The position numbers and the translations under genes were made by a program. The notes beneath the pieces are model-generated. The model was not told the DNA's origin. It saw only the letters and a list, made by a program, of their open reading frames with translations, and searched no databases. This document shows, piece after piece, positions 13,806 through 25,918 of a DNA stretch of 49,141 nt. The stretch covers positions 1 to 49,141 of the forward strand of contig NZ_CAMLSE010000047.1 of NCBI RefSeq assembly GCF_946482605.1, written 5' to 3'. Numbering within the stretch: position 1 is the stretch's first letter; each line of letters starts with the position of its first letter. The DNA comes from an uncultured Dyadobacter sp. GTDB lineage: Bacteria > Bacteroidota > Bacteroidia > Cytophagales > Spirosomataceae.

Positions 13806-14900
13806 TTAATTACAGCCGCGTCCGCTGATGACAATCCGTCCGTCGGTACTCCTGTATTCGGCTTCGATGGATTTGCAGATCACGTCCAGTTTTTCATAAA
13901 GCGATTCCATGGTCAGGTCGGCGGTTAGCTCGCATTGTGCGAACAGGTCCGCGTCGAAGGTAATGGGCACTCCGTAAGCTTTTTCAAGCGTTTCAAACAC
14001 TTCCGGAATAGGGGACCTGGTGAAAACAAACTGCTTCGGCAGGCTAGCACCCTTCACGAGAACCGGCTCTTTCACGACAGATCTGACCAGTTCCACATCC
14101 TTGCGAGACAGCCTGGCCTGCTGGTTTGGCAAAAGAAGCAGGTTCCGGACTTTCCCGTTCCCTGTTTTGCGATCCACTCCAAGCTCATCCGAAATCGAAA
14201 CGGCGACTTTGCCCGATGTCACATTCACGACCACATCCTGGTCGCGCTCATAAGCCCTGATATTGAAGCTGGTGCCCAGAACTTTGGTAACCAGCTCGTT
14301 GGAGTATACCAAAAAGGGGCGGTCCGGATTTCTGGCGACGTCGAAATAGGCTTCCCCGCTCAGGTATACCTCCCTGGTATCGCCTTCGTTGATCTGCTCC
14401 GGGAAGGACAGACGGCTCGCGGGCGCCAGCCGGATTTTGCTGCCGTCGGACAGCAGGACGGACATGGGCACATCCCCCGTGTTTACTTTTTCGACGAGGC
14501 GCTGCCTGGCTTCCGCAACATTGGATTCGTAGGTAAGCGCCTGCCGGCGGGGGCTATTGACAAACCACAAACCCAGCAGCAGGGCAATGCTGGCCGCCGC
14601 GGACCAATAGGGCCAGGCGGGTAACCTCCTCACCGGGCGCTCTTGCTCGGTGTGGATCTGTGTTTTGATCTGTCGAAAAACCTGGTCCTGATGCTGCCGG
14701 GAGCCAAAGCCGGCATTAACTTCCTCGTCCAGCGCAAGCAAAACCTCACGAGCCTTTGCAACAGTTGCTGCCTGTTGGGGATATTCACCGAGAAACTGCT
14801 GCCAGAAAGTATCGGAATCGGTGGCTGGATTTTGCACCCATTTGCGAAAATCGGCATCTTCCAGGAAATCACTGACCGAATGGTTTGCGTACTTCATCAT
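13806..14900 (-). CDS. FecR-family anti-sigma factor/regulator
   Basis: This 364-aa inner-membrane protein should bind the ECF sigma factor through its cytoplasmic N-terminus (about residues 1-85, beginning MMKYANHSVSDFLEDADF). A single transmembrane segment lies near residues 92-110 (WPYWSAAASIALLLGLWFV). The periplasmic FecR domain follows (about 130-235, with DVPMSVLLSDGSKIRLAPAS and GEAYFDVARNPDRPF). The C-terminal ~75 residues look like the DUF4974 module that contacts STN domains (PIPEVFETLEKAYGVPITFD). It lies between the sigma gene, 94 bp away, and the STN-type susC, which is the usual Bacteroidota arrangement for substrate-sensing uptake loci. Confidence 0.93.
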   Translation of the reverse strand: MMKYANHSVSDFLEDADFRKWVQNPATDSDTFWQQFLGEYPQQAATVAKAREVLLALDEEVNAGFGSRQHQDQVFRQIKTQIHTEQERPVRRLPAWPYWSAAASIALLLGLWFVNSPRRQALTYESNVAEARQRLVEKVNTGDVPMSVLLSDGSKIRLAPASRLSFPEQINEGDTREVYLSGEAYFDVARNPDRPFLVYSNELVTKVLGTSFNIRAYERDQDVVVNVTSGKVAVSISDELGVDRKTGNGKVRNLLLLPNQQARLSRKDVELVRSVVKEPVLVKGASLPKQFVFTRSPIPEVFETLEKAYGVPITFDADLFAQCELTADLTMESLYEKLDVICKSIEAEYRSTDGRIVISGRGCN

Positions 14901-14994
14901 GTCTGTACCGGGAGATTGGTTGTTCCCGTTTTGAATACAGAGCGCAGCCGGGCTGATTTTAACCTTGCAAAAGCACTATTTTTTACCTAAAAAA

Positions 14995-15582
14995 TCAATA
15001 AAATTTAATCAGGCTGAAAATCAGGACAATGGCGATCCTTTTCAGGATGGAAAGAGCCTTTTGCACGAGATTGCGGGCGGTTTGTTCCTTGATGTTGAGC
15101 ACCTGCGCTACCTCGGCATATTCGAGGTTGTGATAGTAGCGCAGCAACAACGCCTCATTCTGGCGGGGCGGGAGCTGGCTGAGCCAAACCCGAAGCTGCT
15201 CGGTCTGCTCGAAAATCTCCTCATGGTCGGCATAAGCAGATTCGGGTGAAATCTCTACCGGCAGGAGCTTTTCGTCGAGCGCTTCCCAATCTGAATGACC
15301 ATTTCCGTCGGATTTCAGCGTCTTGACGATTTGCCGGCGAAGGGAACGCAGCAGATAAAATTTTACGGAAACAGCCTGACCCACAGTAAGGCGGTTGCGC
15401 CAGATGGCAACAAAAAGATCCTGAATGGCGTCGCTGACAATATCCTGCGATGCCAGCCTTTTACCATAACTGAATAAAACCTGGAAGTAGCGGTTATAGA
15501 GCAACTCGAAAGCGGTTTCGTCACCTTCCCTCATGGACGCCCAAAGCATCTCATCGTCTGTATGTCCGGTGTCCGTTTTCAA
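14995..15582 (-). CDS. ECF-type RNA polymerase sigma factor
   Basis: This 195-aa sigma-70-like protein has region 2 at about residues 20-90 (FELLYNRYFQVLFSYGKRLA, AIQDLFVAIWRNR) and region 4 at about 130-185 (LPPRQNEALLLRYYHNLEYA, VAQVLNIKEQTARNLVQKAL, the helix-turn-helix that reads the -35 element). It lacks regions 1 and 3, as expected for the ECF group. The FecR-type regulator follows on the same strand, so it is probably held inactive until ligand uptake through the downstream STN-type SusC. The last residues (IAIVLIFSLIKFY) are unusually hydrophobic for a sigma factor. Confidence 0.93.
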   Translation of the reverse strand: MKTDTGHTDDEMLWASMREGDETAFELLYNRYFQVLFSYGKRLASQDIVSDAIQDLFVAIWRNRLTVGQAVSVKFYLLRSLRRQIVKTLKSDGNGHSDWEALDEKLLPVEISPESAYADHEEIFEQTEQLRVWLSQLPPRQNEALLLRYYHNLEYAEVAQVLNIKEQTARNLVQKALSILKRIAIVLIFSLIKFY

Positions 15583-15769
15583 AAAAGTTCAGTGCCTCCA
15601 CAAATAAAAACAAAAAACCTTGAAAAATTAAAATTGCAGGGTAGGGCACTTGCGGCCGGGCAGGCATTCACCCGGGAGTTTCTCACCGTCCGAGACGATG
15701 ATTGAAGGAACTGGGAGAGGCCTGCCGGACAGAGAAGTTCAGCTTCGGGCAAAAAAAGACAACCTAAGC

Positions 15770-15801
15770 TTGTTTTAGGGAAAAGGATGTGACTATATTT
15801 G
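15770..15801 (+). promoter_or_regulatory. Bacteroidota-type promoter of the sulfatase operon
   Basis: TTG at 15770-15772 is followed after 21 nt by a perfect TATATTTG (TAnnTTTG) at 15794-15801. This matches the Bacteroidota -33/-7 consensus. Transcription would start near 15808, giving about 70 nt before the polycysteine ORF and about 320 nt of leader before the first sulfatase. It faces away from the sigma gene, so the two blocks are divergently transcribed. Confidence 0.65.
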
Positions 15802-15877
15802 TCCTATCTAATTAATAGATTAACTATTTGTTAACCACCGACAGGTAGTTTGTTCCATATTCAACATAACATTTACG

Positions 15878-15967
15878 ATGAATCCGCATTCAGAACAGGT
15901 TATCTTGTTGAACCTCCGCGTGGTATCTTCCTCCGCTTCTTGTTGCTGCTGGTCGGGCTGTTGTTGA
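15878..15967 (+). CDS. Polycysteine leader peptide, putative sulfur-responsive attenuator
   Basis: A 29-codon ORF starts at ATG 15878 (MNPHSEQVILLNLRVV) and ends in SSSASCCCWSGCC before the TGA at 15965-15967. Five of its last eight codons are cysteine (tgt tgc tgc, then tgt tgt). It lies in the long leader of the sulfatase operon, between a consensus promoter and the first sulfatase at 16131. Cysteine-codon-rich upstream ORFs acting as cysteine-responsive attenuators are known in mycobacteria. The LRVVSSSASC segment also resembles, by eye, the short leader peptides found before sulfur genes in actinobacteria. I infer that ribosome stalling at Cys codons when sulfur is scarce would favour expression of the sulfatase genes. 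It was too short to appear in a standard ORF search. Confidence 0.55.
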   Translation: MNPHSEQVILLNLRVVSSSASCCCWSGCC

Positions 15968-15977
15968 AGTCCCGATC
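15951..15977 (+). promoter_or_regulatory. Hairpin spanning the last Cys codons of the leader ORF
   Basis: GGTCGGG (15951-15957) can pair with CCCGATC (15971-15977), giving a 7-bp stem with one G-U pair and a 13-nt loop. The loop contains the two terminal Cys codons and the stop codon. A ribosome waiting at the Cys codons would prevent this stem from forming. That is the geometry expected of an attenuator, although no U-run follows it. Confidence 0.35.
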
Positions 15978-16092
15978 TCGACAGGCATAATGGAAACATA
16001 GCCTTTGGGCTGCGCTGGGGCATCGTCGCCCGGCCGATATTCCTGCGAGTAATTTCCCGCGAATCCAAGTCATTTTCACCATATCCTAAGTC

Positions 16093-16116
16093 CCGGCGCG
16101 CAATGCGATCTGCCGG
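16093..16116 (+). promoter_or_regulatory. Hairpin just upstream of the first sulfatase start
   Basis: CCGGC (16093-16097) pairs with GCCGG (16112-16116) around a smaller CGC-AAT-GCG stem. The structure ends 14 nt before the ATG at 16131, so it could mask the ribosome entry region. It might work together with the leader ORF, but this is inference only. Confidence 0.25.
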
Positions 16117-16130
16117 TCACCCATTTATTT

Positions 16131-17804
16131 ATGAAAGTTTCTACCATTGCCCTAGGGCTACTCGCCGGATTTTCCGGGGCATTTGTGCCTGAGGCCATCG
16201 CCCAGAAAAAGGCTGCACCCGACACCCGCCCAAACATTGTCCTCATCATGGTCGACGACCTCGGTTACTCCGACATCGGAGCATTCGGTTCGGAGATCAA
16301 AACGCCCAACCTCGACCAGCTGGCAGCTGAGGGGATCCGTTTCAGGCAGTTTTACAACAATTCGATCTGCGCACCAACCCGCGCGTCGCTTATCACGGGC
16401 CAGTACCCGCACAAGGCTGGTGTAGGGTATTTCAATGTCAATCTGGGGCTACCGCCTTACCAGGGTTACCTGAATAAAGAATCGCTCACTTTCGGCGAAG
16501 TGCTGCGTAATGCAGGGTACAGCACACTTCTGAGCGGCAAATGGCATGTAGGCGACGACAGCCTCGCATGGCCCAATCAACGTGGGTTCGATCGTTTCTA
16601 CGGCTTCATCGGGGGCGCAAGCAACTACTTTGATATCGGCGGATACGGCCAGGCGCCGCCGGTGGAACTCGTAGAGAATAATAAGCGCGGCCGTTTGCCG
16701 AAAGACAAATACCTGACCAACGAGATCACCGACCACGCATTGCAGTTCCTGGACGAGCAAAGCAAAACGGCCAAGCCGTTCTTCCTCTACCTTGCATTCA
16801 ATGCTCCGCACTGGCCCTTGCAGGCACTGCCGGAGGATATTGCCAAATACAAAGGCCGGTATGCCGCGGGCTGGGATTCGCTCCGGAGCGAACGCATTGC
16901 GCGCCAGAAAACGCTGGGCATTGCGGACCCCAATCAGGCCATAGCTGTTCGTGACCCCGAGGTTCCAGCCTGGGATAACATTCCTTACGATGAAAAACAG
17001 CTTTGGCAGACTAAAATGGAGGTTTACGCAGCCATGGTGGATCGGGTGGACCAGAATGTGGGCAAACTCCGGGAAAAGCTGAAAGCACTTCAGAAGGATC
17101 AAAACACCCTGATCGTCTTCATCTCCGACAATGGAGCACAAGGCGGTTACTCGGGCACCTCGCGTCGTAAGCCGCAGCGGAACACCGGGCCGGTCGGAAC
17201 GGCGGGCTCTTACAGCTACCAGGACCAGAACTGGGCATACGTATCCAACACGCCGCATTCGCATTATAAAAACAACATGCACGAGGGAGGTATCAGCGCG
17301 CCGTTCATCGCGTGGTTTCCGAAACAGATCAAGGCAGGCGGCATCGTGAAAGGTACCGGTCACCTGATCGACCTCGCCCCGACTTTTTACGACCTCGCAC
17401 AGGCAAACTACCCTGCCACGTTCAACGGCCTTAAAACCAACACATTACCGGGCAGAAGCCTGGTGCCCGTCCTGACCGGTAAGGCCGAGGAAGTAGACCG
17501 CACCGAGCCGATCTTCTGGGAACGCGCGGGCAACCGGGCGGTAAGGAAGGGTAAATGGAAGATTGTATCAACCTACCCATCGTATAAATGGGAGCTCTAC
17601 GACCTGGAAAAGGACCGTGGCGAAACCACCGACCTCGCAGCTTCCCGAACGGACATCGTTAACGAACTGTCGGCGGAATATTTCCGCTGGGCGGAGCGCA
17701 CCGGTGTGGTGGATTATGACAAGATCAAACCAGCCAATCCATTCGGTGCGCCGGCAGGGCAGCCCGCGACGCGGCAGGCAAATGTCCGCACGGGCACGCG
17801 CTAG
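16131..17804 (+). CDS. Arylsulfatase-type formylglycine sulfatase
   Basis: This 557-aa S1-family sulfatase should hydrolyse a sulfate ester in the periplasm. It has a signal peptide (about residues 1-24, ending EAIA). Metal-binding VDDLGYSDIG is at 41-50, and the maturation motif CAPTR has Cys80 as the predicted formylglycine. GKWHVGDD follows, and FISDNGAQGG carries the second Asp-Asn metal pair. Its overall shape, including the arginine-rich insert SGTSRRKPQRNTG after the DN pair, resembles the AtsA-like arylsulfatase group. It is the first gene after the long leader with the polycysteine ORF and is followed 84 bp later by a susC gene. Its C-terminus ends in an extra Ala/Pro/Gly-rich tail. 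Confidence 0.93.
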   Translation: MKVSTIALGLLAGFSGAFVPEAIAQKKAAPDTRPNIVLIMVDDLGYSDIGAFGSEIKTPNLDQLAAEGIRFRQFYNNSICAPTRASLITGQYPHKAGVGYFNVNLGLPPYQGYLNKESLTFGEVLRNAGYSTLLSGKWHVGDDSLAWPNQRGFDRFYGFIGGASNYFDIGGYGQAPPVELVENNKRGRLPKDKYLTNEITDHALQFLDEQSKTAKPFFLYLAFNAPHWPLQALPEDIAKYKGRYAAGWDSLRSERIARQKTLGIADPNQAIAVRDPEVPAWDNIPYDEKQLWQTKMEVYAAMVDRVDQNVGKLREKLKALQKDQNTLIVFISDNGAQGGYSGTSRRKPQRNTGPVGTAGSYSYQDQNWAYVSNTPHSHYKNNMHEGGISAPFIAWFPKQIKAGGIVKGTGHLIDLAPTFYDLAQANYPATFNGLKTNTLPGRSLVPVLTGKAEEVDRTEPIFWERAGNRAVRKGKWKIVSTYPSYKWELYDLEKDRGETTDLAASRTDIVNELSAEYFRWAERTGVVDYDKIKPANPFGAPAGQPATRQANVRTGTR

Positions 17805-17888: not shown

Positions 17889-20800
17889 ATGAAAAAACTG
17901 ATACTGTCAGTCATCCTCGTATGGCTGACCGGCTCGCTCTACGCGCAGGAGCTGGTCCAGGGCGTGGTACGCGACGACGCCGGACAAACGCTCCCGGGCG
18001 CTACCGTGGTGCAGAAAGGCACTTCCCGCAACGCCGTCACCGACCCCGACGGTTTGTTCAGCATTCCGGCCGGGAAGGACTTTCCATTTACGCTTCAGAT
18101 CAGTCTCACGGGTTATCAGCAGCAGGAGGTCGAAATATATGAACTCAGCACTGCACCCATTGAAGTACACCTTAAAACCTCCAATGTACTCGATCAGGTG
18201 GTGGTGATCGGCTATGGTACCCAGAAAAAGGGCGATCTGACCGGCTCGGTATCATCCATTTCGACCGGAGACCTCAAAGGCGTGCCCATCAGCTCGCTCG
18301 ACCGGGCTTTGCAGGGACGAGCGGCGGGTGTGCAGGTTACGCAGTCGTCCGGGCAGCCAGGCAGTTCGGTGAGCATCAAGATCCGCGGCGGCAATTCCAT
18401 CAATGGCGCTAACGAACCGCTCTACGTGATCGATGGTTTTCCGGTTTACAACAACAACAGCTATGCCGATGCCGGTGTCACTAATGGCCCGACGATCAAC
18501 GCATTATCCACGCTGAATCCTGGCGACATCGAATCGATCGACATTCTCAAAGATGCTTCCGCGACGGCCATTTATGGTTCCAGGGGAGCCAACGGGGTGG
18601 TGATCATCACAACCAAAAAAGGCAAGGCAGGAAAGAACGTGATCACCTACGATGGCTACTATGGTGTTCAAAAAGTACTTAAAAGGCTCCCGCTCCTGAA
18701 TGCACAGCAATGGGCATTGCTGAAAAACGACGCCATGGCCGATTCCAAAAAAGCACCGGCATTCAGTCAGGCGGAGATCGACAGCCTGGGCAGGCCGGGT
18801 GCAGGCACCGACTGGCAGGATGAGGCGTTCAGGCAGGCTTCGATCCAGAACCACAGTCTTTCGTTTTCGGGCGGTGACGACAAAACCCGTTTCGCCTTGT
18901 CAGGTAATTATTTCAAACAGAACGGGATCCTCCAAAATACCGATTTCGAGCGATATTCTTTCCGTATCAATATCGACCGCGATATGAGCAGGCGGTTCAA
19001 GCTGGGTTTCAATTTTTCGGGCAGTAAATCCTCCGCGCAGGTAGCCCCGGAAAACGTCGTTCCCAACCTGTTGCAAATGCCGCCGACCATGCCGGTGTAC
19101 GACCCCACGAGCGCTAACGGCTTTACGTTGCGGAGTATTTACGACAGTCCGCTGGCAAACCCGATCGCGACATTGTTTCTGCAAGTGAATGAAACACATA
19201 TCTTTCGCGGCTTCGGTAATGCTTACGGCGAATACCAGATCGCCGACGGCCTGAAAGCCAAGGTGTCGCTGGGTACCGACATTCTGCTCAACAAACAGAA
19301 CCGCTACCTGCCCTCGACCTTGCAGGAGGGAAGCGGACTGAACGGCCAGGGCATCATCGGGAACAAAAACACGATCGGCTGGCTCAACGAGAACACATTG
19401 AGCTACAACAAAACCTTCAACACCGACCATGCACTGGATGCTGTGGTGGGGATCACCCAGCAGGCCTCTACCACCGAAAATACAGTGGCCCGCGCGGCAA
19501 CCTTCGTCACCGACGAGTTTGGCTACCATAATCTGGGCGGCGGTACGACCTTCCAGAATTCCTCTTCCAACTATTTCAAATGGACCTTGCTTTCTTACCT
19601 GGGACGCGTCAATTATACGTTCCGCAGCAAGTATAACCTCACGCTGACAGCCCGTGCCGACGGTTCATCGCGGCTGGGTAAGGAGAATAAATGGGGCTTT
19701 TTCCCTTCTGCCGCATTCTCCTGGAACCTCGGTCGCGAAGATTTCATTCGCAACATTCAGGAAATCAGTAATCTCAAACTCAGGTTGAGCGGCGGTGTGA
19801 CCGGGAACCAGGAAATCGCGCCCTACACCTCTCTCGCCCAGGAAGCATATTACAGCTACCTCTTCGGCAGAAAACTGGTGGCGGGTTACGCGCCCAACGG
19901 CATTGCCAACCCTAATCTCGGCTGGGAACAGACCGCCCAATATGATGCCGGTATCGATCTGGGTTTGTTCAAAAACCGTGTCACCGTTACTTTGGACGCC
20001 TATTACAAGAAGACGACCGATCTGCTGCTCGACGTTCCGCTTCCTTACACCAGCGGTTATCCTAATGCATTCCAGAATTACGGCAGCGTAAGCAATAAAG
20101 GGGTGGAACTGTCGATCAACACCGTCAACTCGGAAGGGGCGTTCGGCTGGACGACGGATCTGGTGTTTTCCGCCAACCGTAACAAAGTCGTAAGCCTTGG
20201 ACCAGGGGTATCGTCGGTCATCTCGGGCGTGTCGATCGCGCAGGTAGGTTACCCGCTCGGTTCTTTTTTGGTGTTGAAAACCGATGGTATTTTCCAAAGC
20301 GGTGACGACGTGGCCAAGCTGCCCAGGTTCAACGCGAACGACAAAGCGGGAAGTCAGCGGTACGTGGATGTGAGCGGGCCCGATGGAAAGCCCGACGGCA
20401 CCATTACGCAGGCCTACGACCGCGTGATTGTCGGCAATGCGCAGCCGAAGTTTATTTTCGGTCTTACCAATAATTTTTCTTACAAAAACTTCGATCTCAA
20501 TGTCCTGCTGCAAGGGCAGTCTGGCAATAAGGTATACAATGCCAACCAGGCCAACCTCGAACTGGGAACAGGGTATATCAATGCCTCTACGACCATGCTC
20601 GACCGCTGGACGCCCACCAATCCGAGCAACGTCATCCACCGCGCCATTGAGAACCCGGCGGTGACGGTATCCGACCGTTTCATCGAAAACGGCTCTTACC
20701 TGCGCCTTAAAAACCTCAGCCTGGGGTACTCGCTGCCGGCTTCGGTACTCTCGCACCTGGGCATCAGCCAGCTCCGCTTTTATGTGACAGCCCAGAACTG

Positions 20801-20936
20801 GATCACGTGGACGAAGTATACCGGTTATGATCCGGAAGTAAGTCGCAACGAACAGACCACGCTGACTCAGGGCGTCGACAACGGCGTGTACCCGGCCAGC
20901 AAGACATTCCTCGGCGGCTTGACCCTTACATTCTGA
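17889..20936 (+). CDS. SusC/RagA-family TonB-linked outer membrane transporter
   Basis: This 1015-aa porin is the uptake channel of the sulfatase locus. Signal peptide MKKLILSVILVWLTGSLYAQ is followed by a carboxypeptidase-regulatory-like domain (about residues 22-100, VVRDDAGQTLPGATVVQKG). Then come VVVIGYGTQKKGDLTGSVSS, the plug with ILKDASATAIYGSRGANGV at about 215-235, and the barrel ending in an aromatic residue (GLTLTF). There is no STN domain, so it is not expected to signal through a FecR protein. The arrangement after a sulfatase and before susD plus five more sulfatases suggests that it imports a sulfated or freshly desulfated ligand. Confidence 0.95.
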   Translation: MKKLILSVILVWLTGSLYAQELVQGVVRDDAGQTLPGATVVQKGTSRNAVTDPDGLFSIPAGKDFPFTLQISLTGYQQQEVEIYELSTAPIEVHLKTSNVLDQVVVIGYGTQKKGDLTGSVSSISTGDLKGVPISSLDRALQGRAAGVQVTQSSGQPGSSVSIKIRGGNSINGANEPLYVIDGFPVYNNNSYADAGVTNGPTINALSTLNPGDIESIDILKDASATAIYGSRGANGVVIITTKKGKAGKNVITYDGYYGVQKVLKRLPLLNAQQWALLKNDAMADSKKAPAFSQAEIDSLGRPGAGTDWQDEAFRQASIQNHSLSFSGGDDKTRFALSGNYFKQNGILQNTDFERYSFRINIDRDMSRRFKLGFNFSGSKSSAQVAPENVVPNLLQMPPTMPVYDPTSANGFTLRSIYDSPLANPIATLFLQVNETHIFRGFGNAYGEYQIADGLKAKVSLGTDILLNKQNRYLPSTLQEGSGLNGQGIIGNKNTIGWLNENTLSYNKTFNTDHALDAVVGITQQASTTENTVARAATFVTDEFGYHNLGGGTTFQNSSSNYFKWTLLSYLGRVNYTFRSKYNLTLTARADGSSRLGKENKWGFFPSAAFSWNLGREDFIRNIQEISNLKLRLSGGVTGNQEIAPYTSLAQEAYYSYLFGRKLVAGYAPNGIANPNLGWEQTAQYDAGIDLGLFKNRVTVTLDAYYKKTTDLLLDVPLPYTSGYPNAFQNYGSVSNKGVELSINTVNSEGAFGWTTDLVFSANRNKVVSLGPGVSSVISGVSIAQVGYPLGSFLVLKTDGIFQSGDDVAKLPRFNANDKAGSQRYVDVSGPDGKPDGTITQAYDRVIVGNAQPKFIFGLTNNFSYKNFDLNVLLQGQSGNKVYNANQANLELGTGYINASTTMLDRWTPTNPSNVIHRAIENPAVTVSDRFIENGSYLRLKNLSLGYSLPASVLSHLGISQLRFYVTAQNWITWTKYTGYDPEVSRNEQTTLTQGVDNGVYPASKTFLGGLTLTF

Positions 20937-20956
20937 CAACAGTGCATTATCCGGAT

Positions 20957-22495
20957 ATGACCATGATGAAATTGAATTATAAATTACCTAAAAGCCTGCT
21001 GGCCGCATTACTCGCCGCGACAATGGCCGGCTGCGTCGACCTGGACGAAGCACCGAAATCGTTCGTTTCTTCCGACCAGTTTTTCAAAACACAGGCCGAT
21101 GCCCTTGCCGGCGTCAACAGCATTTATTTCCGGCTCAATTCGACCGGACAGACGCCCTACCACGTTCTTTTCTCGACGGGAATGGATATGATGAGCGACG
21201 ACGTGCAGCCCGGTCCGGGGGCGACTAATGCCGATGTGCGCTCGCAGTCGGTGCTCTCGCATTCGTCCACCGGTCAGCGCGTGCGGGAAATCTGGCAGCA
21301 GCATTACGACGCGGTCAATCGTGCCAACATCGCGATTGACAGGATCCCGGCCATTGCGATGGATGAAACCCTGCGCGGGCGGCTGGTGCTGGAAGCCAAA
21401 TTTCTGCGGGCATTGTTTTATTTCAATCTCGTGCGCCTCTACGGGGATGTGCCTCTGATCCTGCATGAAACGAACTCGCTGAGTCCTGCCGACCTGTACG
21501 TGGAGCGGACGCCCGCCGAGCAGGTGTACCAGCAGATCATCCAGGACCTGACAGACGCCGAAGCCTTGCCCAACGAACCCTTTGCGAAATCGGGCGCGAA
21601 ATACACGGCGGGGGACGCCGGACGTGCTACCGGTGGTGCAGCGCGGTCGTTGCTGGCGAAGGTGTATGTGACCCGCTATGATTATGCCAATGCGATCCGG
21701 AAAAGCAAGGAAGTCATCGACGGTACTTTCGGATATGCCTTGTTTGCGGATTACGCGCACGCCTTTTTGCCCGCCTATAAAAACGGGGTGGAACATATCT
21801 TCTCCGCCCAGTTCGAATCGAATGCCGACTCGCACGGAAACAACCAGGCCATGCGGGAGGCGCCTACCGGTATCCCGGGACTGAACGGCAATTTCGCGGA
21901 ACAGCCCATGCCGGGTGTGTATGAGTTGTATGCGACCGGGGACAAGAGACGCGACGTGACCTTCATTACATCGATCGTAAGCCCTGCTAACGGACAGACC
22001 TACCAGCTGACCGTGAAAGATCCGGCCACCGGAAAGAACAAGCCCAACCCGCATTTCAACAAGTGGTGGGATCCGGCACAGGCAGGCAACCTTTCACAGT
22101 CGGCTGCGAATGTGTCGATCCTGCGCTTTTCGGATGTGCTGCTGATCCACGCCGAGGCGGAGAATGAGCAGAATGGACCGAATGCGGCCGCTTATGCATC
22201 TTATAACAAGGTGCGTCAGCGGGCGGGTTTAAACAATCTGACACCCGGCCTTTCCCAGGCGCAGTTCCGGGATTCGCTGCGGATCGATCGCAGGCTGGAA
22301 TTCGTGTTCGAATACTCCCGCTGGTTTGACCTGATCCGCTACAAGCCGCTCGAAGGACCTGATGCCTACCTGATCAAGTCCCTGCACGCCGCCGGTAAAA
22401 CCAACGCCCAGCCCAAGCATTACCTGTACCCGATCCCGCAACAGGAAATCGACAACAATCCCAAACTTCAGGGAAAACAGAATGCGGGATGGTAG
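20957..22495 (+). CDS. SusD/RagB-family nutrient-binding outer membrane lipoprotein
   Basis: The start lies at one of three nearby ATGs (20957, 20963, 20966). A GTG at 20942, six bases after the susC stop, is also open. Any choice gives a lipoprotein signal ending in ATMAGC. The mature protein of about 490 residues carries the SusD hallmarks SDQFFKTQADALAGVNSIYF, GRLVLEAKFLRALFYFNLVR, ILRFSDVLLIHAEAENE, and the C-terminal RLEFVFEYSRWFDLIRYKP and YPIPQQEIDNNPKL. At about 510 aa it is slightly longer than the other two SusD proteins here. It forms the capture half of the transporter in the sulfatase operon. Confidence 0.94.
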   Translation: MTMMKLNYKLPKSLLAALLAATMAGCVDLDEAPKSFVSSDQFFKTQADALAGVNSIYFRLNSTGQTPYHVLFSTGMDMMSDDVQPGPGATNADVRSQSVLSHSSTGQRVREIWQQHYDAVNRANIAIDRIPAIAMDETLRGRLVLEAKFLRALFYFNLVRLYGDVPLILHETNSLSPADLYVERTPAEQVYQQIIQDLTDAEALPNEPFAKSGAKYTAGDAGRATGGAARSLLAKVYVTRYDYANAIRKSKEVIDGTFGYALFADYAHAFLPAYKNGVEHIFSAQFESNADSHGNNQAMREAPTGIPGLNGNFAEQPMPGVYELYATGDKRRDVTFITSIVSPANGQTYQLTVKDPATGKNKPNPHFNKWWDPAQAGNLSQSAANVSILRFSDVLLIHAEAENEQNGPNAAAYASYNKVRQRAGLNNLTPGLSQAQFRDSLRIDRRLEFVFEYSRWFDLIRYKPLEGPDAYLIKSLHAAGKTNAQPKHYLYPIPQQEIDNNPKLQGKQNAGW

Positions 22496-22628: not shown

Positions 22629-24152
22629 ATGATTCTCAAAACGTTCAAACTCTGCATTATTCTCAACGTGCTGCTGTCGCTTGGCGCCATGGGTACTATT
22701 CATGCCACATTATTGCGGACGGATCAGTACAATGGCCGCCGGCTTCGGGCAGAGCCCTCCGGGGGCGTGCCGTCCGCGGTGCGACCGAACGCGGCCCGAC
22801 CGAACGCGGCCCGGCCGTCGGCGGCCCCACCGAACGCGGCCCGGCCCAACATCGTGATTATTATGGCGGATGACCTGGACAGCCGGCAGTTGAGCTGCTA
22901 TGGCGGCCGGAACCTGCAAACAAGGCATATCGATGCATTGGCGAAGGATGGGTTGAAGTTCAACCACATCTACACCTCCGAAGCGATGTGCGTGCCTACG
23001 CGGGCATCGCTTTTCACAGGCTTGTATCCGGTACGGCATGGCTCGTTCCAGAACCATAAGCCGGTTTACGACCATCTGAAAAGCGTCGGGCATTACCTGG
23101 GCGACCTCGGCTACCGCGTCGGGCTCACGGGCAAGGATCATGTGACGAAGCCGAAAAGCGTCTTTCCGTTCGACATCGTAACCGGATTTGAACCCAACTG
23201 CGTCGCACCTACCGATGACTACCAGCTCGAAGATGTCAGGAAATACATCACGGCAAGCGACCAGCCTTATTGCCTTTTCATCATGAGTATCAACCCCCAC
23301 GCGCCGTGGACGGTAGGCGATACCACTGAATTCGATTCCCAAAAACTGAAACTGCCTGCCGACTGGGTGGATACGCCCATTACCCGCCGGCAATACGTGA
23401 AGTACCTGGCGGAAGTGCGGCGCCTGGACGACCAGGTAGGCGATATTACCGCATTGCTGAAAGAAACCGGACAGGACCGGAACACGATCCTGATTTTCCT
23501 CGGCGAGCAGGGAGCCCAGTTTCCCGGTGCCAAATGGAACCTGTACGATACGGGCCAGCGGAGCTCGATGCTTGTCAAATGGCCGGGCAGGGTGAAAGCT
23601 TCGTCCGAGACCAATGCATTGGTACAATATGAAGACATTACCCCGACGCTGATCGACATTGCGGGCGGCAAGCCTGTTGCGGGCCTGGATGGCAGGAGCT
23701 TTCTGCCGGTGATTTCCGGTAAAAACAAGGAGGCCAGGCGCTATGTCTACGGCGTTCACAACAACATTCCCGAAGGTGATCCCTATCCGATCCGGAGCAT
23801 TCGCGATCATCGGTACAAGCTGATCGTGAACCTGATGCCCGATAAGCAGTATTACAACCGCTTTATGATGAACCGCGAGCGAAAGGACCGTAATACCGTC
23901 TGGTTTTCGTGGATCGATGATACTGCCGACGTTCAGGCCAAAAGGATTACCGACCGCTTCGTAAACCGGCCTGCCATTGAGTTCTATGATACCGAAAAGG
24001 ATCCGTTCGAGCTCGCCAACCTGGCAGGAGAACCTCAACATGCCGCGCGCATCGCTTCCCTGCAAAAGGAGCTGGAAGCGTGGATGAAACAGCAGGGTGA
24101 CCAGGGGGCTTCCATCGACAGGGTGTACACCAAAAAACAGGAAACCAGATGA
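22629..24152 (+). CDS. Formylglycine sulfatase with N-terminal RPNAA repeat
   Basis: This 507-aa S1-family sulfatase has a signal peptide at about residues 1-26. A low-complexity linker built from tandem RPNAA units (52-71) precedes the first catalytic strand RPNIVIIMADDLDS. CVPTR has the predicted formylglycine at Cys121, and GKDHV replaces the usual GKWHL. The second metal site reads FLGEQG rather than the common SDNG, followed by KWNLYDTGQRSSMLVKWPG. These variants suggest a heparan-sulfamidase-like or similar subgroup rather than a classical arylsulfatase, but the substrate is unknown. Its stop overlaps the next gene by ATGA, so translation of the three genes from here to 27246 is probably coupled. 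Confidence 0.9.
   Translation: MILKTFKLCIILNVLLSLGAMGTIHATLLRTDQYNGRRLRAEPSGGVPSAVRPNAARPNAARPSAAPPNAARPNIVIIMADDLDSRQLSCYGGRNLQTRHIDALAKDGLKFNHIYTSEAMCVPTRASLFTGLYPVRHGSFQNHKPVYDHLKSVGHYLGDLGYRVGLTGKDHVTKPKSVFPFDIVTGFEPNCVAPTDDYQLEDVRKYITASDQPYCLFIMSINPHAPWTVGDTTEFDSQKLKLPADWVDTPITRRQYVKYLAEVRRLDDQVGDITALLKETGQDRNTILIFLGEQGAQFPGAKWNLYDTGQRSSMLVKWPGRVKASSETNALVQYEDITPTLIDIAGGKPVAGLDGRSFLPVISGKNKEARRYVYGVHNNIPEGDPYPIRSIRDHRYKLIVNLMPDKQYYNRFMMNRERKDRNTVWFSWIDDTADVQAKRITDRFVNRPAIEFYDTEKDPFELANLAGEPQHAARIASLQKELEAWMKQQGDQGASIDRVYTKKQETR
22782..22841 (+). repeat. Four tandem 15-bp units encoding RPNAA
   Basis: Four in-frame 15-bp units start at 22782, 22797, 22812 and 22827. The first two are both CGACCGAACGCGGCC, and the other two differ at a few bases. 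They encode RPNAA, RPNAA, RPSAA and PPNAA, and the conserved sulfatase strand RPNIV follows immediately. The repeat looks like slipped-strand duplication of the start of the catalytic domain. Confidence 0.85.
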
Positions 24153-25918
24153 AGCAGCGATTCCTTGCCTGGATAATGCTTTGCGCATGCTGGGGCCTGC
24201 CTGCTCACAGCCAGCAGAAAGCACGCCCCAACATCCTACTGATCATGACCGATGACCAGGGTTACGGCGATTTCGGTTTTACGGGTAATCCACACGTGAA
24301 AACGCCGCATATCGACCAACTCGCGGCACGTTCGACGCGCCTGACCAACTATCATAATTCTCCCGTGTGCGCACCTACACGGGCGAGCCTGCTCACAGGG
24401 CGCTATCACCAGCGAACGGGCGTGCACGACACTTATAACGGTGGAGCGATTATGGCCGCAGCGGAGACTACACTGGCCGAGATCCTGGGCAAAAACGGCT
24501 ACAAAACCGGTATTGTCGGCAAATGGCACCTGGGCGACAATTATCCGTTCAGGCCATCGGATCAGGGCTTTCAGTACAGTCTGGTCCATGGCGGTGGCGG
24601 CGTGGGACAGCCGGGCGACTTCTACGAGAATTTCGTGCGCACCGATAGCAGCTATTTCAACACCACCCTGGCTGAAAACGACCGGAAAGTAGCCAGGAAG
24701 GGCTATTGCACGGATATTTTTACCGATCAGGCCCTGCAATTTCTGCGCGACAGCAAATCGGCTCCCTTCTTCCTGTACGTGTCGTACAATGCGCCGCATA
24801 CGCCACTGCAACTCCCCAAACGGTACGAAGACATGTACAAGGACCTCCGCTTCGACACCGACACCGACCGCCAGCCAGGAAAAGCCTGGGCCTCGATGAC
24901 CGATAAGGACAAAGCCGACGCGCGGAAAGTATATGGTATGGCCACCAACATCGACGATAACGTTGGTCGTATTCTCGGTGAGCTCAAAAAGCAGGGACTG
25001 GAAGAGAACACCATTGTGATTTTCCTCACGGACAACGGTAACCAGCAGCTCCGCTACAATGCCGGTTTCAGAGGATTGAAAGGCTCGGCCTACGAAGGAG
25101 GTACCCGCGTACCCTTCCTGATTTCCGGTGCTGGCCTGTTTGAGCCAAACCGTGAAGTGAATGCATTACTGGCGCACATCGACGTGCTGCCCACATTGCT
25201 GGAAGCTGTGAAAATACCATTGCCGGCTGCGCTCCAAACAGACGGACGTCCGGCATTGCAAACCATCCGGGGGAAACAGGCCGCGTCACCGCGCATTTTC
25301 TACAACGCCTGGAACCGCGGCTGGCCGGAACCTTACCGGAATGCGGCTTTTTACAAAGGGAGGCACAAGCTCGTCGCATTCAATGCCGATGGGGACGAGC
25401 TCCATTCATTCGGATTGTTTGACCTGGAAAAAGACCCTTTCGAACAGGATAACCTCGTGCAGCGGCACCCCGAACTCGCCAGACAATTGAAGAAAGGCCT
25501 CGATAGCGTCTACACCGACCTTGCGGGAAGTCCGCATCTTTCACAGCGCCGCATTATTGTAGGTTCCACCCACGAGCCGCTTACGGTACTGACGCGCCAG
25601 GATCTGAATGGCACTGCGATGAGCAACTGGCTGGCCGACAAAGCTACCGGTTACTGGAACATTACCGTTGCACGCGACGGGTATTATGATCTGCGGTCGA
25701 TCCACACCGGTCCCATCGCGAAGGGCACGCGTAGCCTCGTGCGGCTGGGGCAAGTGCAGCGGAGTGTGGTGGCCAAAGGAGATGACAATGCGGCGGTGAT
25801 CCGTGAGGTTTGGCTCAAAAAGGGTGATTACCTGGTGGAATCGTGGTTTGAGGGGCCAGGTGGCGTAACGGGGCCTTACTATCTGGAAATCAGCTTATCA
25901 AAGACTATTAAAAAATGA
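24149..25918 (+). CDS. Arylsulfatase-type formylglycine sulfatase with C-terminal extension
   Basis: This 589-aa secreted S1-family sulfatase has a signal peptide at about residues 1-21 (MKQRFLAWIMLCACWGLPAH). Metal-binding MTDDQGYGDFG is followed by CAPTRAS with the predicted formylglycine at Cys74, then GKWHLGDNYPFRPSDQGF. The second metal site is FLTDNGNQQLRYNAGFRG. After the sulfatase core ends near residue 450 there is an extra module of about 120 residues with strand-like text (GYWNITVARDGYYDLRSIH) that may be a beta-sandwich for substrate contact. It is translationally coupled at both ends by 4-bp ATGA overlaps. Confidence 0.92.
   Translation: MKQRFLAWIMLCACWGLPAHSQQKARPNILLIMTDDQGYGDFGFTGNPHVKTPHIDQLAARSTRLTNYHNSPVCAPTRASLLTGRYHQRTGVHDTYNGGAIMAAAETTLAEILGKNGYKTGIVGKWHLGDNYPFRPSDQGFQYSLVHGGGGVGQPGDFYENFVRTDSSYFNTTLAENDRKVARKGYCTDIFTDQALQFLRDSKSAPFFLYVSYNAPHTPLQLPKRYEDMYKDLRFDTDTDRQPGKAWASMTDKDKADARKVYGMATNIDDNVGRILGELKKQGLEENTIVIFLTDNGNQQLRYNAGFRGLKGSAYEGGTRVPFLISGAGLFEPNREVNALLAHIDVLPTLLEAVKIPLPAALQTDGRPALQTIRGKQAASPRIFYNAWNRGWPEPYRNAAFYKGRHKLVAFNADGDELHSFGLFDLEKDPFEQDNLVQRHPELARQLKKGLDSVYTDLAGSPHLSQRRIIVGSTHEPLTVLTRQDLNGTAMSNWLADKATGYWNITVARDGYYDLRSIHTGPIAKGTRSLVRLGQVQRSVVAKGDDNAAVIREVWLKKGDYLVESWFEGPGGVTGPYYLEISLSKTIKK

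Follow-up and report, generated by a model that had tools for sequence, protein, structure and literature searches.

The window (the whole 49,141-nt stretch of DNA analyzed) contains an operon of five genes, headed by a sulfatase gene and preceded by a short upstream ORF (uORF) that ends in a cluster of Cys codons. The features are as follows.

13806-14900, minus strand: FecR-type gene, divergent from the sulfatase operon
14995-15582, minus strand: ECF sigma gene, divergent from the sulfatase operon
15770-15801, plus strand: promoter, with TTG at 15770-15772, 21 nt, and a –7 box TATATTTG at 15794-15801 (sequence only, start unmapped)
15804-15818, plus strand: palindrome CTAT-N7-ATAG, presumed operator, spanning the expected transcription start
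15822-15850, plus strand: A hairpin, 11-bp stem, loop AACCACC at 15833-15839 (predicted fold; stem covariation across 145 sites)
15878-15967, plus strand: uORF, 29 codons, MNPHSEQVILLNLRVVSSSASCCCWSGCC, TGA stop (ATG ORF; orthologue and operator-site comparisons)
15920-15924, plus strand: B box GTGGT, Val-Val codons 15-16, complement of ACCAC in the A loop
15941-15949, plus strand: Cys codons 22-24 (TGT TGC TGC), from the orthologue alignment
15959-15964, plus strand: Cys codons 28-29 (TGT TGT), Cys-Cys in 8 of 8 orthologous uORFs
16131-17804, plus strand: sulfatase, first gene of the operon (PF00884, 9.5e-64)
17889-20936, plus strand: SusC/RagA-type TonB-dependent transporter (TonB plug domains)
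20942-22495, plus strand: SusD-like protein (weak SusD-type matches, E 3.4e-24, far under the model cut-off)
22629-24152 and 24149-25918, plus strand: two further sulfatase-like genes (matches under equivalog cut-offs)

The earlier note had described 15770-16130 as a promoter, a 29-codon ORF with a Cys-rich end, a 163-nt gap and a sulfatase gene, and this layout proved accurate on re-reading. The uORF ends SCCCWSGCC*, with Cys at five of the final eight codons, and its stop lies 163 nt from the sulfatase ATG (16131). Judged from the position of the putative promoter, the uORF ATG (15878) falls ∼77 nt past the end of the –7 box (15801). The palindrome carries one additional C in front, and hence mismatches the exact pattern used below for genome searches. 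The B box comprises 5 nt, shorter than the usual form GGTGGT, and Cys codons 28-29 come 39 nt after it. An ECF sigma and FecR-type gene pair, with SusC/SusD, adjoins the sulfatase operon divergently (13806-15582, minus strand).

To assess conservation, the sulfatase was searched in 200 genomes of the GTDB family of Spirosoma validum, to which its close orthologues belong; 33 of the 200 gave a match at E ≤ 1e-200. Among 30 loci, 19 (L106-L124) form a close set, with 77.8–84.2% identity. A uORF of exactly 29 codons, with an ATG start, is present in eight of these (L107, L109, L113, L115, L116, L117, L120 and L122), following the pattern MN..SE...CC with CC, CCC or CCCC at the end. Codons 28 and 29 are Cys-Cys in all eight and in the window, and much of the peptide body differs. 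L106, L108, L111, L112 and L124 retain a CCACC-type box as well as the promoter block, without a Cys uORF, and neither block nor box was found in the 420 nt examined at L110, L114, L118, L119, L121 and L123. L121 lies within an operon whose first gene, for a binding protein, is preceded by a separate Cys uORF (L217). More distant sulfatase loci (L125-L135) showed the uORF in 0 of 11 cases. The 11 of 19 close orthologues without the uORF count against the reading that we favor below. Nonetheless, the earlier note had staked its proposal on conservation of the ORF or its Cys codons in relatives, and both are found again in 8 of the 19 close relatives.

Alignment of these leaders revealed a conserved block, ACTTTGTCTATC-AAATTT-ATAG, across the expected start. 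The derived pattern ACTTTGTCTAYN6-7RTAG occurs at 64 places in 14 chosen genomes, versus 2 for the reversed pattern, and 36 of the 64 precede an ATG ORF whose last ten residues include two or more Cys (a loose filter). Such uORFs precede sulfatases, a fatty-acid-hydroxylase gene (PF04116), SusC and a PBP_like_2-like protein (weak match, under the model cut-off). The genes that follow the operator, whether a uORF is present or absent, include those for a rhodanese, a TlpA/ResA-like protein, a chromate-type transporter, sulfatases, ECF sigma factors, an SfnG-like monooxygenase (partial match, under cut-off) and a NifS-like cysteine desulfurase (under the equivalog cut-off). Of 147 Chitinophagaceae genomes, 17 together contain TTTGTCTAYN6-7RTAGACTA at 27 places (control, 1), and a Cys-ending uORF follows 15 of these places under the same kind of loose filter. 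The operator combined with an ACCACC box occurs at 134 places in 46 of 222 Spirosoma-family genomes (control, 1), and a similar combined pattern was matched 15 times in Chitinophagaceae (11 of 394 genomes; control, 0). Thus, by sequence comparison, the leader is conserved before many sulfur-related genes in two Bacteroidota families. The proposal of a conserved Cys-codon leader ahead of sulfur-scavenging genes therefore holds, both for the 8 of 19 close orthologues and for other sulfur-related operons. Its link to the sulfatase operon holds in part: the leader is present there, but it is common to the gene set with the same palindrome rather than unique to that operon. The palindrome's regulator may be an Rrf2-type protein, which is a guess on our part. 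Genes of the PAPS-reductase family (cysH/cysD type) lacked the operator at all 26 loci from nine of these genomes; the few CC-containing short ORFs (sORFs) seen at such loci were all without operator. This argues against viewing the gene set as a general cysteine regulon.

Could such an ORF arise by chance in an ordinary 5' region? Single cases can: in a wide set of sulfatase loci, ORFs of this type numbered 32 in sense and 10 on the opposite strand. Because chance CCC ORFs are so common there, we used a test anchored on the operator. (A genome-wide search with TGYTGYTGYN0-12TRA was also tried and was unusable, giving hundreds of matches per genome.) Loci L136-L375 yielded 145 distinct sites that combine the operator with ACCACC and have 350 nt or more of downstream sequence, and we scored ATG ORFs of 10–60 codons that start within 130 nt and contain CC in the last ten residues. 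A CC-ending uORF follows 87 of the 145 sites. Dinucleotide shuffles gave one in 48 of 2900 cases (1.7%), and the reverse strand at 3 of 145 sites. When the same test was run for doubled residues of the other 19 amino acids, the highest count was 15 (Ser). The 145 sites come from related genomes, so these counts are not independent. Yet with the 8 of 19 orthologues, the excess over shuffles and a B box in 76 of the 87 uORFs, a chance origin is scarcely credible. By eye, probable members lie beyond the filter as well: L286 and L307, with single-Cys ends, and L372, with a longer tail.

Assigned by crude motifs, the downstream genes at sites with a uORF are PBP (27), TonB/SusC (23), fatty-acid-hydroxylase operon (20), other (12) and sulfatase (5); at sites without one they are other (30), TonB/SusC (14), PBP (6), sulfatase (5) and fatty-acid hydroxylase (3). 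In four fatty-acid-hydroxylase operons (L140, L145, L214 and L216), a conserved sORF of ∼39 codons, membrane-like by eye, opens the operon before the annotated gene.

Cysteine is concentrated at the very end of the uORFs, making up 32% of residues in the final ten positions versus 1.9% upstream (87 uORFs), and the last Cys is the very last residue in 53 of 87. TGT (206) and TGC (74) interchange between leaders. By comparison, across the 3190 codons of five operon genes in the window, Cys is encoded by TGC in 11 cases and by TGT in none, and TGT serves at 3 of the 5 Cys codons of the window leader. Leaders thus often use a codon avoided by the operon.

Because short peptides rich in Cys are characteristic of RiPPs, we considered whether the uORF might encode a functional small protein or RiPP precursor. 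This seems highly improbable. The peptide body is wholly different between operon types, whereas the reading frame of GTGG and the terminal Cys are retained, and the window peptide has no NCBIfam match. A Cys-rich nascent peptide might instead respond to metals or redox state, and not to the charging of Cys-tRNA. Cys clusters can bind metal, and a copper-sensing nascent protein has been described (in the available part of PMC9973294). But a Cys run at the extreme end of the peptide would still be inside the ribosome, and the genes that were typed are sulfur-related, with no metal-homeostasis family save one chromate-type transporter. On these grounds we regard metal or redox sensing as very unlikely.

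The ACCACC box forms the loop of a 5' hairpin (A), whose stem shows compensating changes. Across the 145 sites the stem score averages 5.28, versus 3.46 when the 3' flanks are permuted (sd 0.10, maximum 3.72), and with 123 unique flanks the values are 5.17 and 3.44. Stems of at least 5 bp occur at 98 of 145 sites, and the window A hairpin is present in both MFE and centroid structures. Scores are similar at sites with a CC uORF (5.41, n = 87) and without (5.09, n = 58). That the hairpin is kept at these 58 sites implies a role independent of the uORF. We also observed ECF sigma genes (L266, L268, L306, L340, L354 and L355; identity confirmed by Pfam for L266 only) that have the operator and ACCACC hairpin, without a Cys uORF, which argues that the hairpin is useful in its own right.

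Within the uORFs, a second element (B), GGTGG or GTGGT, is complementary to the A loop. It is found in 76 of 87 uORFs and in 19% of shuffled ones, and in 73 of the 76 it lies in one frame, with GTG as a codon. The residue ahead of B is variable, and the third position of its codon is mostly G; this suggests that the RNA matters here rather than the peptide. The distance from B to the first counted Cys is 34–40 nt in 52 of 76 uORFs, and 13 in ten SusC-type leaders that have an additional early Cys. Pairing between A and B extends into their flanks, with a score of 113 versus 86.5 for permuted flanks (sd 7.2, 0 of 2000), a comparison weakened by relatedness among the sequences. In two cases, L141 and L142, the Cys run is gone and the main gene (a binding protein in L141, a sulfatase in L142, which is the same locus as L106) has the B-box stretch fused in frame at its start.

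These data bear on another explanation, in which two separate layers coexist: the palindrome and A hairpin would be bound by a protein or a trans-acting RNA, the Cys uORF would act independently, and the A/B complementarity would be a side effect or a decoy. Equal conservation of the hairpin at uORF-less sites, the ECF sigma genes included, speaks for this explanation. It accounts less well for the recurrence of the A-loop complement in 76 of 87 uORFs in a single frame and for A/B flanks that fit better than permuted ones, and we consider it unlikely, though worth keeping in mind.

A and B have further potential partners downstream. Element C, GGTGGT located 50–99 nt past the uORF stop, occurs in 27 of 87 leaders versus 4.9% of shuffles; most of the 27 belong to fatty-acid-hydroxylase operons or to Chitinophagaceae. 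In 14 aligned fatty-acid-hydroxylase leaders, C is part of a conserved stem that shows compensating changes. The usual A/C pair is GTTAACCACC/GGTGGTTGGT; the two co-change in L250, from a Cnuella genome (GTTAATCGCC/GGCGATTGGC), and in L237 (ATTTACCACCA/TGGTGGTAAAT). In SusC-type leaders, B can pair with a stretch directly ahead of the SusC start (D), mostly ACCAC. Over 12 aligned leaders, 59 of 60 B:D pair cells can pair; both partners are near-invariant and hence give no covariation evidence. ACCAC lies 9–10 nt before the SusC ATG in eight such leaders. In the uORF-less sulfatase orthologues L112 and L124, GTGGTTAAC right before the ATG can pair with the A-box sequence GTTAACCAC. The window has no GGTGGT after the uORF and no ACCAC ahead of the sulfatase start. 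Across the set, the A, B and C boxes and covariation hint at mutually exclusive pairings; the window itself lacks C and has a short B.

Folding of individual leaders was less informative. The whole window leader folds no better than shuffles (z 0.30), and a helix between the 5' region and the uORF beat shuffles in 10 of 70 single leaders at p ≤ 0.05. Because duplex energies and single-leader helices are mostly at shuffle level, our argument rests on position, frame and permutation across leaders. The 7-bp hairpin GGTCGGG/CCCGATC that the earlier note had placed around the terminal Cys codons does appear in the predicted fold, but with a shuffle p of 0.40, and it is not conserved: the best helices of four tested orthologous leaders differ from it. 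We therefore dropped the hairpins of that note, which are not conserved; the RNA parts that are conserved are the hairpin with the ACCACC loop and, within the uORF, the box complementary to it. Alignments and the window fold had also suggested a hairpin at the uORF start codon, but its stem lengths match those of shuffles (4.85 versus 4.84), and it was rejected. Searches of Rfam gave no relevant match for the window (one irrelevant hit, under cut-off) and none for nine of the loci.

The uORF, its Cys run, the A hairpin, the B box, their spacing and their position before sulfur-related genes are conserved. Taken together, these features make it probable, with good confidence on our part, that the leader is cysteine-responsive and works by ribosome stalling, with alternative RNA pairing around the ACCACC loop. 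Transcription from the palindromic-operator promoter would yield an RNA that opens with the A hairpin (loop AACCACC). The uORF would then be translated, and when Cys-tRNA is poorly charged, a ribosome would stall at the terminal Cys run. Since most leaders have B ∼12 codons upstream of the Cys run, the stall could decide whether the A loop pairs with B. Given the size of the ribosome footprint, a single ribosome halted on the terminal Cys codons would have B right behind its trailing edge, free for A; a second, queued ribosome would cover B. A:B pairing would exclude pairing of B with the stretch before the SusC start in one operon type, and pairing of the A loop with the downstream GGTGGT loop in others. 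We infer translation, stalling, the response to cysteine, its sign and the output step from the arrangement of these parts. Stalling would favor the ON state, with the start region unmasked or premature termination prevented. The sign is argued from physiology rather than from sequence: a role in sulfur scavenging favors ON at low cysteine, so the leader probably turns on sulfur scavenging at cysteine shortage. In SusC-type leaders, A:B pairing would free the SusC start, which fits ON under a single-ribosome stall.

A more specific version casts the ACCACC-loop hairpin as an RNA hub, for which the Cys stall picks a GGUGGU partner, either in the uORF or in a downstream loop, and which would operate without Shine–Dalgarno elements or intrinsic terminators as a new class of amino-acid attenuator. 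We advance this version tentatively, as a possibility to which we give somewhat less than even weight. The PAPS-reductase-family result led us to slightly reduce our confidence in the hub, and to hold the broader stalling explanation at probable.

Mycobacterial polycysteine uORFs were reportedly described by Canestrari et al. in 2020 (10.1111/mmi.14498), and are leaderless by the title of that paper. As cited in the available parts of PMC9094748 and PMC13236596, such uORFs act as attenuators, and the leader resembles them: a short ORF with successive Cys codons close to its stop precedes sulfur or cysteine genes. In the present set these are sulfur-scavenging genes, with the operator absent at the 26 PAPS-reductase-family loci. 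Unlike leaderless mycobacterial uORFs, however, the window uORF begins downstream of a conserved hairpin, ∼70 nt from the expected transcription start. It also differs in having a complementary box within the uORF, in its phylum, and in its association with sulfur scavenging rather than cysteine synthesis. Given its different RNA parts and a uORF that is not leaderless, we describe the leader as working like a cysteine attenuator but do not count it in the mycobacterial family.

In Actinobacteria, candidate Cys leader peptides (PMC1262725) likewise have Cys-codon runs adjoining the stop before cys operons and no conserved terminator. The available part of that paper reports no conserved hairpin between leader and operon, and describes neither an ACCACC hairpin nor A/B/C pairing. 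The ilvB1 attenuator of Mycobacterium tuberculosis, as presented in part of PMC13236596, combines a uORF of regulatory codons with mutually exclusive RNA structures, as proposed here, but it concerns branched-chain amino acids and uses an intrinsic terminator. No terminator-like site was found at 15750-16200 of the window, whereas trp/ilv-type attenuators have an intrinsic terminator between leader peptide and operon. Transcriptome maps of Bacteroidota list leader-peptide-like sORFs in long 5' regions (PMC9723704, PMC7366714), with no cysteine leader or sulfatase operon described in the available parts. Bacteroidota mRNAs lack Shine–Dalgarno sequences (PMC6847099). A literature search, with subscription papers mostly outside its scope, gave no Bacteroidota cysteine leader and no such RNA among the matches listed.

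If the proposed mechanism is true, a set of sulfur-scavenging operons in Bacteroidota, among them sulfatase/SusCD loci acting on sulfated compounds, is served by a cysteine-responsive leader system, and polysaccharide-type uptake loci would be tied to sulfur status. Amino-acid attenuation in Bacteroidota would also become directly testable, and the palindrome plus ACCACC loop would serve as a predictor of set members in unannotated genomes.

Cys-ending sORFs were also seen in leaders of Pedobacter, Mucilaginibacter and Sphingobacterium (L001-L075), where no ACCACC box of the present form was evident by eye. SusC leaders of Pedobacter, Filimonas and Sphingobacterium (L016, L017, L018, L049, L032 and L033) share a recurring CAATTGGCGTTGGC-type motif. 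It often lies within AACAGG...CCTGTT and is accompanied by Cys-ending sORFs; perhaps these leaders are another version of the system.
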